Virus record (IMG/VR): IMGVR_UViG_3300037961_000016
Location: 1-24,164 of that record
Strand: one strand, 5' to 3'
Source: a virus
Length of the DNA stretch: 24,164 nt
The notes beneath the pieces were generated by a model, which saw only the letters and a program-made list of their open reading frames with translations, had not been told where the DNA came from and made no database searches. Of this stretch, positions 11,219 to 18,241 are shown piece after piece. Position 1 is the stretch's first letter. Each line of letters starts with the position of its first letter. A program made the position numbers and the translations under genes.

Positions 11219-11914
11219 ATGGCGACAAGCGGAACAACCAGCTTTACCCTTGACGTGTCAGACATCATGGAAGAGGCGTATGAGCGTGCAGGTCTGGAGC
11301 TTAGGAGCGGGTATGATTACAAAACTGCTCGCCGCAGTCTTGATCTACTTATGCTTGAATGGCAAAACCGTGGGCTTAATCTCTGGACGGTACGAAATGG
11401 CTCACAGGCTCTTACCGCAGGAACTGCGTCATACGACCTTACTGCTGACAAGTTAGATATTATCGAGGGCTTGCTTCGCACAGACGCAGGCGACACCTCA
11501 AAGCAATCAGACCTGACGATGCAGAGGATCTCGGTGAGCCAGTACGCCCACCAGACAAACAAGCTGTCTCAGGGGCGTCCGTTGCAGTATTACGTTGAGC
11601 GTAAGCCGACAGGCATCACTGTCCACTTCTGGCCAGTACCAGATGCAACAACGAGCTATACGTTTGAGTATTACTACATGGAGCGGATAGAAGATACGGG
11701 CAGTCCCGCATCAAACAACATGGATGTGCCGGCAAGATTCTTGCCCTGTTTGGTGTCGGGACTTGCCTACCAAATAGCAAGTAAGCGTCCAGAAGCAATG
11801 CAGATGGCCCCTATGTTGAAGCAGGTGTACGAAGAGCAGTGGGCTTTGGCGGCTGATGCGGCTCGCGAAAAAGCGGCGTTGTACATGGCTCCCGGCGGCT
11901 ATAACGACTTATGA
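11219..11914 (+). CDS. Head-tail adaptor (P22 gp4 / T7 gp11-like), 231 aa
   Basis: Adaptors of this type form a ring below the portal and carry the short tail. Features recalled for the family are an N-terminal helical pair ('SDIMEEAYERAGLELRSG' then 'ARRSLDLLMLEWQNRG'), the strand pair 'NGSQALTAGTASYDL', 'GRPLQYYVERKPTGITVHFWPVP', an aromatic strand 'YTFEYYYMERI', and C-terminal helices 'ARFLPCLVSGLAYQIASKRPE' and 'MLKQVYEEQWALA'. The order after portal, capsid and accessory genes fits. It overlaps the next gene by four bases. A second protein with the same strand-helix order lies at 12738. Confidence 0.8.
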   Translation: MATSGTTSFTLDVSDIMEEAYERAGLELRSGYDYKTARRSLDLLMLEWQNRGLNLWTVRNGSQALTAGTASYDLTADKLDIIEGLLRTDAGDTSKQSDLTMQRISVSQYAHQTNKLSQGRPLQYYVERKPTGITVHFWPVPDATTSYTFEYYYMERIEDTGSPASNNMDVPARFLPCLVSGLAYQIASKRPEAMQMAPMLKQVYEEQWALAADAAREKAALYMAPGGYNDL

Positions 11915-12741
11915 GTAGCTACGCAAAGGGTAAGCATGCCTACGGGTTTTGCGACAGGACTGGTTTTCGATATCCGCTAAGAGACTTAGTAAAGCAGATA
12001 GAGGATGGTCGTTGGAATGGTCTGTTAGTTGGTCGAGATGTTGTAGATCAAGATCAGCCTCAACTAAAACTGGGGGACGTAAATGCGAGTGATCCGCAAG
12101 CTCTTCGGAACCCAAGACCCGACAATAGCTTGGATGAAGGCCGAGCTTTATTTGCGTTCGACCCTGTGGGTGGCGGCGATACTGCTTTGGGTAGTCGCAC
12201 TGTTGGTCTCGACATGTCAGGGCATGTCGGGCGTGTAAGCGTTGAGATTGGCGCATCCGATAATGTAACCATATACCCCACTGGGCTTGCTGGAACTGGA
12301 TCTGTAAACGATGTCACGGTGGCCTTACAGGATGCGCTTGCGTATCCCACAGGAGTCGCTGGTCAGGCCGCTGGAGGCGCGGTTACGGCAAGCGTAAACG
12401 TAACCACCTATGCTATAACGGTAAGCGCCCCCTACGGCTCTGGCAACAAGTATTATCAAGATGGGACATTGCCGGGATCAGGCGGCGTCAATATCAGCGA
12501 AGGCCAAACCTACCGATTCGACCAGTCAGATAGCAGTAATTCTGGACATCCCCTGCGCTTTTCAACCACATCTGACGGCTCGCACGGCGGCGGTAGCGAG
12601 TACACAACCGGAGTGACAACCTCTGGCACACCGGGGAGTGCGGGAGCCTATACTCAGATCACTGTGGCTTCAGGAGCACCAACGCTCTACACATATTGCA
12701 CTAACCACAGCGGCATGGGCTATAAGGTGAACACGGTATGA
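11911..12741 (+). CDS. Connector-region virion protein with cupredoxin-like C-terminal domain (276 aa)
   Basis: The N-terminus 'YGFCDRTGFRYPLRDLV' (11-27) and the segment 'RNPRPDNSLDEGRALFAF' (66-83) look like a conserved phage tail/connector module. The middle (105-185) is beta-rich. The C-terminal domain (about 195-276) has 'NISEGQTYRFDQSD', 'GHPLRFSTT' and 'YTYCTNHSGMGY'. His213, Cys263, His266 and Met269 make the His, Cys-x2-His-x2-Met ligand set of type 1 copper proteins; the Cys-His-Met spacing matches amicyanin as I recall it. Copper binding is inference; the fold may simply be re-used for structure. The gene lies between the two adaptor genes with four-base overlaps on both sides. Confidence 0.78.
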   Translation: MSSYAKGKHAYGFCDRTGFRYPLRDLVKQIEDGRWNGLLVGRDVVDQDQPQLKLGDVNASDPQALRNPRPDNSLDEGRALFAFDPVGGGDTALGSRTVGLDMSGHVGRVSVEIGASDNVTIYPTGLAGTGSVNDVTVALQDALAYPTGVAGQAAGGAVTASVNVTTYAITVSAPYGSGNKYYQDGTLPGSGGVNISEGQTYRFDQSDSSNSGHPLRFSTTSDGSHGGGSEYTTGVTTSGTPGSAGAYTQITVASGAPTLYTYCTNHSGMGYKVNTV

Positions 12742-13379
12742 GCTTTACATTTACAACGCTAAAGCAGGCGATTCAAGACTATGTTGAGTCTAGCGAGACT
12801 AGTTTTGTAAACAATCTGCCGACGATTATTACTCAGGCGGAAGATAGGATATTAAAGCGTTGTCAACTTCCAGACTTCAGGAAAAACGTCACGGGAAGTA
12901 TGACTTCTGGTAACAAGTACCTAGCAATGCCTTCGGACTTTTTGTCGGCATACTCGTTGGCAATAGACAATTCTGGCTACGAGTATCTTTTGTTTAAAGA
13001 TGTGAACTATATGCGCGAGGCGTACCCCGACTCCACAGTGACTGGGGTGCCAAAGGTCTATGCCGCTTTTAGTGAAGATTACTTTTTGATTGGCCCCACG
13101 CCAAACAGCAGTTTTACAGTCGAGCTTCATTACTTCCACAAGCCCGAGTCCATCACCACTGCAAGCTCAGGCACAAGCTGGCTTGGCACCAATGCAGAAG
13201 CAACCCTTCTGTATGGTTGCTTGGTAGAGGCTTACACTTACCTCAAGGGTGATCCCGACTTAATGCAGTTGTATGTGCAGAGGTATGAGGACGCTATTCA
13301 GCGCCTAGAAGAACTAGGAGAAGGGTACAACACTACTGACAGCTATCGCAGTGGCGCGGTCAGGAAGATGCGAACCTAA
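12738..13379 (+). CDS. Second adaptor-like / tail tubular protein A-like (213 aa)
   Basis: An N-terminal helix pair ('FTTLKQAIQDYVESSET' and 'LPTIITQAEDRILKRCQLP'), strands 'NVTGSMTSGNKYLAMPSDF', the motif 'TGVPKVYAAFSEDYFLIGPTP', strand 'FTVELHYFHKPESI' and C-terminal helices 'ATLLYGCLVEAYTYLKGDPD' and 'YVQRYEDAIQRLEELG'. This strand-helix order is that of phage adaptor proteins of the T7 gp11 type. It is probably a ring protein of the head-tail junction. It shares layout with the protein at 11219 but not clear sequence identity by eye. It overlaps both neighbouring genes by one to four bases. Confidence 0.78.
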   Translation: MSFTFTTLKQAIQDYVESSETSFVNNLPTIITQAEDRILKRCQLPDFRKNVTGSMTSGNKYLAMPSDFLSAYSLAIDNSGYEYLLFKDVNYMREAYPDSTVTGVPKVYAAFSEDYFLIGPTPNSSFTVELHYFHKPESITTASSGTSWLGTNAEATLLYGCLVEAYTYLKGDPDLMQLYVQRYEDAIQRLEELGEGYNTTDSYRSGAVRKMRT

Positions 13380-13657: not shown

Positions 13658-14092
13658 ATGGCGTTTAGTGGCAATTTTATGTGCACATCCTTCAAGAAAG
13701 AGTTGCTTGAGGGCGTCCACAATTTTAAGAACTCTGGGGGCAGTACGTTTAAGCTGGCCATGTACACCAACAGCGCCAGCTTTACTGCCGCTACAACTGC
13801 GTACACTACCAGTAATGAGGTTAGCGGAACGGGATACAGTGCTGGAGGCGGAACCCTCACGCGGGTTGATCCAACAACGTCGAGCACTACAGCCTTTACT
13901 GACTTTGCGGACCTAACCTTTAGCAGTTCAAGCATTACCGCTCGCGGAGCCTTGATCTATAACGATTCGGCTAGCGGCGACCCAACTGTTGTGGTGCTGG
14001 ATTTTGGTGGAGATAAAACCTCTAGCTCTGGAGACTTCACTATTGTTTTTCCCACGGCTGACGCGAGCAACGCAATTATCAGGATAGCCTAA
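13658..14092 (+). CDS. Virion/tail protein of the 'SFKxELLxGxHNF' type (144 aa)
   Basis: Begins 'FMCTSFKKELLEGVHNFKN', a short conserved lead that I recall from many phage structural proteins, then 'FKLAMYTNSASFTAAT', 'EVSGTGYSAGGGTLTRVDPT', 'ITARGALIYNDSA', and closes with 'DPTVVVLDFGGDKTSSSGDFTIVFP'. It is beta-rich and Thr/Ser-rich, with few charges, typical of tail fibre or collar components. It starts directly after the previous stop and overlaps the next gene by one base. A tail or fibre-base role is inferred. Confidence 0.75.
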   Translation: MAFSGNFMCTSFKKELLEGVHNFKNSGGSTFKLAMYTNSASFTAATTAYTTSNEVSGTGYSAGGGTLTRVDPTTSSTTAFTDFADLTFSSSSITARGALIYNDSASGDPTVVVLDFGGDKTSSSGDFTIVFPTADASNAIIRIA

Positions 14093-14562
14093 TGGCTGAT
14101 GCCACTGTCGCCTTTACTGGGTGGGGCCGTGGCGCTTGGAACAGTGCCGCGTGGGGAGAGGGTAGCAATACCAACTCAGGCGCCACCGGATCGGTAGGAA
14201 CTGTTGTTGTTGCTCCGGGCACTGGCGTGTCCGTTACAGGTCTTTCTGCTACAGGGTCGGTAGGCTCTGTTACAGCTACAGGAACAGCGGCGATAGCGGT
14301 CACAGGGATAGCCGCTACAGGAGCCGTCGGCTCTGTTTCACTATCCACAGATAACAACATAAGCGTTACTGGCCTTTCTGCGACAGGGGCGGTTGGATCT
14401 GCTACCGCCGCCGCAGAAGCCAGCGTTTCCGTTGAGGGTGTATCGGCAACAGGGCAGGTAGGAGCGGTGCTTGTCTGGAGCGAGATTGTTCCCAGCCAAA
14501 CACCTAGCTACTCAACTATAGCACCGTCACAGACGCCAAATTACGAAGAAATTGCGGCATAA
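14092..14562 (+). CDS. Repeat-rich tail/virion protein with 22-residue repeats (156 aa)
   Basis: The N-terminus holds a Trp/Gly motif 'TGWGRGAWNSAAWGEG' (9-24). From residue 31 to 124 the tag 'ATGSVG' or a close variant recurs at 31, 53, 75, 97 and 119, exactly every 22 residues, with units such as 'VTGLSATGSVGSVTATGT'. The C-terminus repeats 'PSQTP' at 134 and 145 and ends 'NYEEIAA'. There are very few charged residues. This looks like an elongated beta-structured fibre or spike, not an enzyme. The gene is flanked by other tail proteins. The '..SQTP.. IAA' ending is one I associate with marine phage tail proteins. Confidence 0.75.
   Translation: MADATVAFTGWGRGAWNSAAWGEGSNTNSGATGSVGTVVVAPGTGVSVTGLSATGSVGSVTATGTAAIAVTGIAATGAVGSVSLSTDNNISVTGLSATGAVGSATAAAEASVSVEGVSATGQVGAVLVWSEIVPSQTPSYSTIAPSQTPNYEEIAA
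14182..14463 (+). repeat. In-frame 66-bp (22-residue) tandem repeats
   Basis: Five copies of an ATG(S/A/Q)VG tag at a strict 22-codon period within the 156-aa gene. The copies differ in DNA more than in protein, so the periodicity is kept by selection and not a recent amplification. Confidence 0.85.
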
Positions 14563-15826: not shown

Positions 15827-18241
15827 ATGTCAGGGCCATTTGGTTCCCCGCAATGGATGTACTCATCGGGCTTTTACACGCATAAGATAGATAACTCTAT
15901 ACGGTTTGACAATACCGGGCATTTTGATAGAACGCCCTCGTCTCAGGGCGACAAGGATGAATGGACGTTTAGTGCTTGGGTAAAGCGTTCAAATTTATCA
16001 GACTCAGGATATAACTGTATTTTTGGCGCTGGAAGCGGGGGCACAAACAGAGATATTCTTTACTTTGATCCAAACGACAAGCTGAATTGGGATGGATACA
16101 CAGGCAGTTCGTATGATTGGAATTACGTCAGTACCCAAGTTTTTAGAGATCCTTCTGCTTGGTACCACATTGTAGTTGTTCAGGACACATACCAATCAAC
16201 AGCTTCAGACAGGGCTAAAGTATATGTTAACGGCGAGCAGATAACTGCTTGGGACACCGCGACGAACCCAAATCAGTATAAGACAGGCTATGTCAGCAAC
16301 ACCAACAAGCACACTATTGGGGCTACCGTTTACGATACTGCTTACTTTGATGGTTACATTGCAGAAGTTAATTTTGTTGATGGTCAAGCACTAGACCCCT
16401 CTTACTTTGGCGAAACCAAGGCAGACACATGGGTTCCTAAAGCGTACACAGGTAGCTACGGTTCTTTAGGCTATTACTTAAAGTTTGGCAACTCTAGCGC
16501 ACTAGGCACTGACTCCAGCGGTAACGGCCATACTTGGACAGCTACGGATATTGCGGCTACGGATCAAGTGCCTGACAGCCCGACAAACAACTGGGCTACG
16601 CTAAATCCTCTTGGCCCTAGAATAAACGGCGCTAATTATGGCATGGGTACGCAAACCCAAGGCAACTTAACGGTTACTTCAACGTCTGCCTCTTATTACT
16701 CTAAAACCTCGTCTACTATTTATAACCACGCTAATACTGGAAAGTGGTATTACGAGATAAGAATGGACTCTTTAGATTTTGGGAACACTCGTGGTTACGT
16801 TCAGTTTAACATTGGCGGTGCTTACGTCTGGAGATACTACGGCAACAGTAATACTTTAATTAGCACTGGAGGCTCTTTCACTAGCCTAGCTAACGGCGAC
16901 ATCGTAATGATTGCTATTGACCAAGATAATGGCAAAGGTTATTTCGGTGTCAACGGCAGTTGGTATAACGTAAGCGGAGCGCCCGATCCAGCCGCAGGAA
17001 CAAACCCCCACACAACATTTTCTACTCTTAGTGCTCACGGCATTATAGGTCATGTAGAAATACGCTCGGGTAGTGCTGTAAACACCGTAACTGCTAACTT
17101 CGGTCAAGACTCTAGCTTTGCAGGACAGGCTACAGCACAAGGCAACACAGACGCTAACGGACGCGGCGACTTTTACTACAGTCCACCAGCAGGCTTCCTG
17201 GCCTTGTGTTCAGCTAATATGCCTGATCCAGTAGCGGCTATTAATCCTGCTGTAAACAACAGCCCACAAGATCACTTTAATACTGTGTTGTTTACTGCAA
17301 ACAACGGTGATCAAAGCATTACTGGTGTTGGTTTTGCACCTGAGTTTATATGGGCTAAGTCTAGAGGCAATGCCTATAACCACGATATTTACGATATTGT
17401 TCGCGGTACAGGCAAGCACGTTTCTCCTAATACAACACAAGGCGAAACGTCTGATCCCGACACTATCAAGTCTTTTGACTCGGATGGGTTTACATTGGGC
17501 GTAGACTCTAACGCTAACTATGGGACAGCGGCTTCTGTAGCATGGAACTGGAAACTTGGCGGTTCAGGCGTAAGCAACAGTGACGGAACAATATCATCTA
17601 CCGTGTCTGCTAATACAGATGCTGGGGTTAGTGTTGTTACATATAACGGGTCAAGTGCTGGCACTGTAGGGCATGGTTTGGGGTCAACGCCTAAGATTGT
17701 AATTCAAAAAGTCAGAAATCAGGCGGGCGACTATTGGTGGTTTGGAACAACTGCAATAGACGGGTCTCTTGACTACCTTCAACTTAACGACAACGCTGTA
17801 AAAGCAGATAGCGGCTATACAGCGCCGACAAGCTCAGTGTTTAGCAATGTAACCTTTTCAGGCGCTACAAGTAATGTGGCCTATTGTTTTGCAGAAGTAG
17901 AAGGCTTCAGCAAGTTCGGTAGCTACACAGGCAATGGAAACGCAGGCGGCCCGTTTATTCATACAGGGTTTAGGCCAGCTTGGGTAATTATTAAAAGAAC
18001 AGACTCTACAGACGATTGGCGTATATACGACAACAAAAGAAGCAACTATAACGAGAAAACGGCAACGCTGTACGCCAACCACAATCTTGCAGAATACACA
18101 TCTGCTGGCGCTAACGAAATAGATACGCTGTCTAATGGATTTAAAATTAGAAATACCAACAACGGCTACAACGCTAGCAGTGGCACTTATCTTTACATGG
18201 CATTTGCAGAGATGCCCTTGAAATACGCTAACGCGAGGTAA
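15827..18241 (+). CDS. Large multidomain adhesin: LamG-like, SPRY-like and three related C-terminal modules (804 aa)
   Basis: Residues about 22-190 form a LamG/concanavalin-like domain ('EWTFSAWVKRS', 'AWYHIVVVQD', 'KVYVNGEQI', 'FDGYIAEVNFVDGQAL'). Residues 215-262 are a linker with 'YYLKFGNSS' and 'DSSGNGHTW'. Residues about 275-435 look like a SPRY domain ('GKWYYEIRMDS', 'GDIVMIAIDQDNGKGYFGVNG'). The C-terminus holds three similar modules, each with a 'GF.P..V..K' strand (502, 617, 714) and a closing strand ('VAWNWKLGG', 'VAYCFAEVEG', 'YLYMAFAEMP'); they recall DUF7483 of marine phages. Such proteins bind carbohydrates or surface proteins, so this is the likely receptor-binding protein. The gene is more AT-rich than the head genes, suggesting exchange. 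Confidence 0.85.
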   Translation: MSGPFGSPQWMYSSGFYTHKIDNSIRFDNTGHFDRTPSSQGDKDEWTFSAWVKRSNLSDSGYNCIFGAGSGGTNRDILYFDPNDKLNWDGYTGSSYDWNYVSTQVFRDPSAWYHIVVVQDTYQSTASDRAKVYVNGEQITAWDTATNPNQYKTGYVSNTNKHTIGATVYDTAYFDGYIAEVNFVDGQALDPSYFGETKADTWVPKAYTGSYGSLGYYLKFGNSSALGTDSSGNGHTWTATDIAATDQVPDSPTNNWATLNPLGPRINGANYGMGTQTQGNLTVTSTSASYYSKTSSTIYNHANTGKWYYEIRMDSLDFGNTRGYVQFNIGGAYVWRYYGNSNTLISTGGSFTSLANGDIVMIAIDQDNGKGYFGVNGSWYNVSGAPDPAAGTNPHTTFSTLSAHGIIGHVEIRSGSAVNTVTANFGQDSSFAGQATAQGNTDANGRGDFYYSPPAGFLALCSANMPDPVAAINPAVNNSPQDHFNTVLFTANNGDQSITGVGFAPEFIWAKSRGNAYNHDIYDIVRGTGKHVSPNTTQGETSDPDTIKSFDSDGFTLGVDSNANYGTAASVAWNWKLGGSGVSNSDGTISSTVSANTDAGVSVVTYNGSSAGTVGHGLGSTPKIVIQKVRNQAGDYWWFGTTAIDGSLDYLQLNDNAVKADSGYTAPTSSVFSNVTFSGATSNVAYCFAEVEGFSKFGSYTGNGNAGGPFIHTGFRPAWVIIKRTDSTDDWRIYDNKRSNYNEKTATLYANHNLAEYTSAGANEIDTLSNGFKIRNTNNGYNASSGTYLYMAFAEMPLKYANAR

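Follow-up and report, generated by a model that had tools for sequence, protein, structure and literature searches.

The locus examined here raises the question of whether a protein encoded among the structural genes of a phage carries a type 1 copper site and, if so, what such a site would do on a virus particle. The window, meaning the whole stretch of DNA that was analysed, is an IMG/VR record of 24,164 bases and probably fragmentary; its terminase is closest to that of phage 023Pt_psg01 (58%), followed by that of Pelagibacter phage HTVC027P (55%). An earlier note had pointed to His213, Cys263, His266 and Met269 of a 276-aa protein as a complete copper ligand set, and these residues are present at the positions given (Table 1). 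A six-frame search of the window with a loose H..C..H..M ligand pattern gave a single match, in the domain of this ORF, and the strict pattern, H-x(30-70)-C-x2-H-x2-M, appeared in 3 of 20,000 shuffles of the 276-aa protein.

Table 1. Features of the domain-carrying locus, with nucleotide positions in the window.
Feature	Position	Strand	Details
Upstream SU10-like adaptor protein	11219..11914	+	PF24175 E 3e-13; phrog_12985
Domain-carrying ORF	11911..12741	+	276 aa
N-terminal module, aa 1-113 (folded part ~aa 10-48)	11911..12249	+	phrog_28581; degenerate zinc-ribbon-like; behind adaptor gene
Low-confidence linker, aa 49-163, repeat-like segments	12055..12399	+	pLDDT mostly <50 at aa 49-161
Predicted cupredoxin domain, aa 165-276	12403..12738	+	AF2, Foldseek PDB, hhalign to PF00127-type set 95.4%
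His213, predicted equatorial copper ligand	12547..12549	+	34/34 non-redundant ligand copies; aligned to classical ligand His
Cys263, predicted equatorial copper ligand	12697..12699	+	34/34; aligned to classical ligand Cys
His266, predicted equatorial copper ligand	12706..12708	+	34/34; aligned to classical ligand His
Met269, predicted axial copper ligand	12715..12717	+	32/34; Gln in L281, L391, L402
Downstream second SU10-like adaptor protein	12738..13379	+	PF24175 E 9e-23

The domain is C-terminal, as had been claimed, but the claimed start was about 30 residues late; the true start is at about aa 164–165 (12400–12403), and in the predicted structure the first two strands lie outside the interval that had been proposed. 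The AlphaFold2 model of the domain, made with 42 homologues, has a pLDDT of 95.0 and a pTM of 0.87. In domain numbering, His49 is found in the loop ahead of strand 51–54, Cys99 closes the penultimate strand (95–99), and His102 and Met105 are in the loop ahead of the last strand (108–111), a placement that we take to be the cupredoxin arrangement. In a Foldseek search of the PDB the top places went to rusticyanins (1rcy, probability 1.00, TMq 0.60, E 3.4e-3), with plastocyanin (1ag6, probability 0.97), CueO and two-domain laccases among the lower-ranked matches, and the full-length model again returned rusticyanin. With nine short strands in the model and cupredoxins at the top of the PDB list, the criterion for a cupredoxin fold (a Greek-key beta-sandwich of about eight strands) is met, and the C-terminal domain is predicted with high confidence to have this fold. 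No PDB match was found at E <= 0.001, the aligned rmsd was about 4–8 Å, and Ig-like domains appeared lower in the list, at smaller probability. As no PDB match reached E 0.001 and Ig-like domains were listed, the assignment, though strong, leaves some room for doubt. When the PDB was searched by sequence alone, the matches were antibody chains and a single weak one to pseudoazurin (E 1.1), and these carry no weight as evidence.

Profile-profile comparison (hhalign) of the ligand-bearing copies with 36 PF00127-type genome-derived sequences gave the match listed in Table 1 (E 1.7e-8, a single comparison), and placed H213, C263 and H266 on the classical copper ligands His, Cys and His. Reversed-profile controls gave 0.7% and 0.4%. 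When the four ligand columns were masked the match dropped to 24%, so that in large part it reflects the ligand motif itself. The curated cut-off of PF00127 (Copper-bind) was not reached: the window protein was unmatched, one of 42 members gave E 0.23, and a SAR86 relative scored 13.5 bits, below the cut-off of 21.2. Neither Pfam nor NCBIfam holds a family that matches the domain above cut-off, and PHROGs likewise give no cupredoxin name. No plasmid or E. coli match was found.

Amicyanin, plastocyanin and pseudoazurin (PF00127) resemble the window domain in fold class, in having the first His in a loop, and in the Cys-x2-His of the last loop. The C-x2-H-x2-M loop is identical in spacing to that of amicyanin (His53, Cys92, His95, Met98; PMC12723479), in agreement with the earlier note. 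The residue after the first ligand His is Asn in amicyanin (H-N) and Ser in rusticyanin, whereas it is Pro in the window domain (H-P), so the second sphere differs from both. The PF00127 proteins are soluble periplasmic electron carriers, while the window domain is a module of a phage structural protein. Rusticyanin is the best PDB structural match, but is larger (150–155 residues), shares only about 13% sequence identity with the window domain, and has a Cys-x4-His-x4-Met ligand loop. Stellacyanin-type sites have an axial Gln, as do three copies in the family, while the window copy has Met.

If the four residues make up one site, then His and Cys should not vary independently among homologues, and this was the case. 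At least 594 relatives were confirmed in viral contigs, and tblastn found the family in 84 isolate phage records (E up to 1). All four ligand residues are present in 85/85 complete close copies, and in 363 of the 436 copies collected by an iterated profile over the loci. A non-redundant set of 34 ligand-bearing copies (<70% identity) has H213, C263 and H266, found in every copy, as its most conserved columns, with M269 (two exceptions) among the most conserved. Among 26 aligned copies from outside the window (two loci being included twice), 23 have H/C/H/M, two have Gln and one has lost the site. The codons for these residues vary synonymously, with CAC 158/CAT 209 for H213 (about 43:57), TGC 154/TGT 212 for C263 (about 42:58) and CAC 185/CAT 181 for H266 (about 51:49). 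Some of the scan patterns included YCTNHSGM or YYQCTIHA, and complete copies were favoured in part of the sample because some search patterns held the CxxHxxM stretch. The patterns of the scan with L083 spanned the Cys and not H/H/M, and the tblastn search of isolate phages used no motif pattern. Judged from these alignments, the four residues behave as one co-inherited site. A fifth invariant ligand, His225, was considered and rejected; it is His in nearly all close copies, but distant copies lose or replace it yet keep H/C/H/M, which places it outside the site.

Axial variants of only two kinds were seen, either Gln (phage L281 and SAR86-group L391 and L402) or loss (L266 and L270). Natural type 1 sites have an axial Met, a Gln as in stellacyanin, or a Leu as in ceruloplasmin (PMC4059628). 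Two sequence marks of a type 1 copper site, equatorial His/Cys/His conserved in order and position, and Met, Gln or a weak or absent axial ligand after the second His, are thus both met. T4-like baseplate wedge proteins carry a second copy of the domain from which all four ligand residues are missing at once, and 69 ORFs pair a complete copy with a ligand-less one; as these belong mainly to one paralogous lineage, they count as one or a few events. The three equatorial ligands have also been lost in one SAR86-group copy (L392). In the baseplate wedge protein of cyanophage S-RIM8 (L084:1841-6490), a Pfam YHYH match (PF14240) is found right after the ligand-less cupredoxin copy.

The gene lies in the structural module beside two adaptor genes, and by synteny meets the positional criterion for a virion structural protein. 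Its location at the head-tail joint is unproven and rests on synteny with the SU10-like adaptor genes; likewise, the presence of the domain in the virion is not shown, but inferred from synteny and from the annotation of other phages. The N-terminal module occurs without the cupredoxin in 72 of 80 N-terminal relatives, is a separate ORF in many, and in CRP-901 and Pag-Yong1, too, immediately follows the adaptor gene. The module has a zinc-ribbon-like CxxC..CxxC form in two other loci (L043:2605-3324 and L051:748-1440); in the window (11911-12054) it is degenerate, with just one of those Cys kept. The linker of about 110 residues is, going by the model, probably flexible. Because the N-terminal ribbon and the linker were modelled at lower confidence, nothing further is claimed about the arrangement of the domains. 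The linker has segments (within 12264-12400), PTGLAGTGSV for example, that are similar to the VTGLSATGSVGSV repeats in a downstream 156-aa protein (14092-14562). Further along the window, an 804-aa protein (15827-18241), in which Laminin_G_3 and DUF7483 domains were identified, is likely to be a fibre or receptor-binding protein.

In other phages the domain is found on different proteins. In 023Pt_psg01 (L085:3989-5083) the cupredoxin is fused in front of an adaptor homologue (phrog_12985 at aa 135-349), and the ORF after this fusion has the N-terminal module without a cupredoxin, so that two related phages have put the domain on two neighbouring proteins of one locus. It is also carried by the T4 gp9/10-like connector of S-RIM8, by cyanophage tail-fibre and baseplate proteins, and by a pelagiphage tail-fibre protein; the S-TIM5 homologue is annotated merely as virion structural. 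P-HM1 and EXVC032P are further isolates in which the domain is present. The domain is a mobile accessory module. A contig assigned to Pelagibacteraceae (L098:4702-6453) encodes a fibre-like protein with the domain inside a phage-like region, and was set aside as a candidate cellular (SAR11) copy since this region contains a terminase and large virion-like genes.

Cellular copies do exist. A chromosomal copy in SAR116 adjoins genes for EF-Tu and ribosomal proteins, and the domain was found in 66 of the 151 SAR86-group genomes searched. SAR86 lipoproteins with a lipobox carry it (L097:5728-6276, L106:5731-6276, L114:2900-4492 and L390), from which it is inferred that in bacteria the domain is probably extracytoplasmic, a location that fits copper binding. 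The L097 and L106 lipoprotein genes are directly upstream of a gene for a secreted-looking protein of 966–976 aa. The SAR86 group also has open frames of 3259–3684 aa in which the domain occurs once or twice (L391, L392, L395 and L397-L399).

The interpretation offered in the earlier note is upheld in the main, and both of its refuting conditions were escaped to the extent that a model without measured ligand distances permits. The explanation that best accounts for these data is that the C-terminal 112 residues would form a cupredoxin with a type 1 site, in which His213, Cys263 and His266 are the equatorial ligands, Met269 is axial, and the ligand loop is of the short, amicyanin type. A cupredoxin fold with a type 1 copper site is very likely, in the absence of any direct evidence of copper. 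Copper binding is inferred from the identity of the ligands and from the variation between Met, Gln and no ligand at the axial position; it remains predicted and not shown, the ligand distances being unmeasured. The domain may be an accessory module on a structural-module protein by the head-tail adaptor, with the linker holding it off its anchor. As the cytosol is poor in free copper, loading is inferred to take place outside it, probably in seawater once the particle is released or, during lysis, in the periplasm. The holo-domain would then be displayed on the particle surface and, again by inference, might serve there as a contact module that depends on copper and acts on encounter with a cell. 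The joint claim of fold, co-inherited site, copper binding and display on the virion is considered likely as a whole. That a copper-loaded surface module acts at cell contact is the favoured reading of its role, an inference that is held only tentatively. A dedicated electron-transfer partner is unlikely since the carriers are so varied.

The role of the metal could be a lesser one, in that copper merely keeps a displayed beta-sandwich domain, used for decoration or adhesion, stable in seawater, with cell binding left to the remainder of the surface. The many unrelated sites at which the domain occurs (neck, baseplate connector, tail fibre, lipoproteins and frames of more than 3000 aa) speak against one electron-transfer partner and are compatible with this explanation, which is possible if rather doubtful. 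Against it, apo-cupredoxins stay folded, and the ligand-less paralogues keep the family sequence pattern, so the metal does not seem to be needed for the fold; elsewhere, the three equatorial ligands are invariant. That the family persists without a site in the ligand-less paralogue, yet conserves it strictly elsewhere, suggests that the metal itself matters.

By analogy with the iron proposal for phage tails, a host receptor for copper acquisition might instead recognise the copper bound to the virion. The idea has already been put forward for iron in the tails of marine phages (PMC11705849), and a copper equivalent would suit the presence of the domain on proteins of the tail fibre and baseplate in cyanophages and pelagiphages, but a receptor has yet to be identified and the window copy adjoins adaptor genes rather than a fibre tip, which leaves this explanation improbable. 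Sequence and fold alone cannot identify a metal, and H/C/H/M could bind zinc or iron, or be kept for packing. This is regarded as quite improbable, given that His-Cys-His-Met in a cupredoxin topology, with the axial residue changed just to Gln or lost, is the type 1 pattern (PMC4059628). That the motif arose by chance in an unrelated beta-rich tail domain, as short motifs can and as the lack of a curated cupredoxin family above cut-off might allow, has almost nothing left in its favour and is ruled out by the conservation data, since the four residues are jointly present in all the complete close copies and in most of the wider family, with family-wide invariance, synonymous codon change and a confidently predicted fold.

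The domain can be compared with other display and metal systems of phages. Ig-like decoration domains are similarly mobile beta-sandwich modules fused to many structural proteins, but in the cupredoxin family it is the ligand set that is most conserved, and to our knowledge Ig-like decoration domains have no metal site of this kind. The iron sites of phage tails (HxH, T4 gp37; the Ferrojan Horse hypothesis) likewise involve a metal bound by marine phage virion proteins (PMC11705849), but those of the trimeric fibres differ from the window domain in fold, ligand set and metal. Nothing on cupredoxins in virions, phage tails or cyanophages was found in the openly licensed literature, which is weak evidence of novelty. 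What would be new is a known fold and a known site in a new setting, inferred to be the particles of marine phages.

Metal sites on the particles of marine phages have so far been argued mainly from HxH iron motifs. The present family offers a sharper and directly testable case, with a ligand set that points to copper and a natural ligand-less paralogue as a control. With the domain present in hundreds of contigs of marine phages and on SAR86 chromosomes, copper may be carried on the particles of many phages in the ocean. A proposal of wider reach, which is doubtful at present, is that marine phages of many lineages have particles with working blue-copper sites, which they took from, or have in common with, SAR86-type surface lipoproteins, and use the copper, by redox or coordination, on meeting a host. 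If this were true, virions would make up a lasting reserve of copper bound to protein in seawater. A domain so far listed as hypothetical or tail fibre in phages of Prochlorococcus, Synechococcus and Pelagibacter gains an identity, as do the SAR86 lipoproteins, and if it does bind copper, then phages would count among the agents that bind copper in the surface ocean, and copper could be a factor in adsorption.
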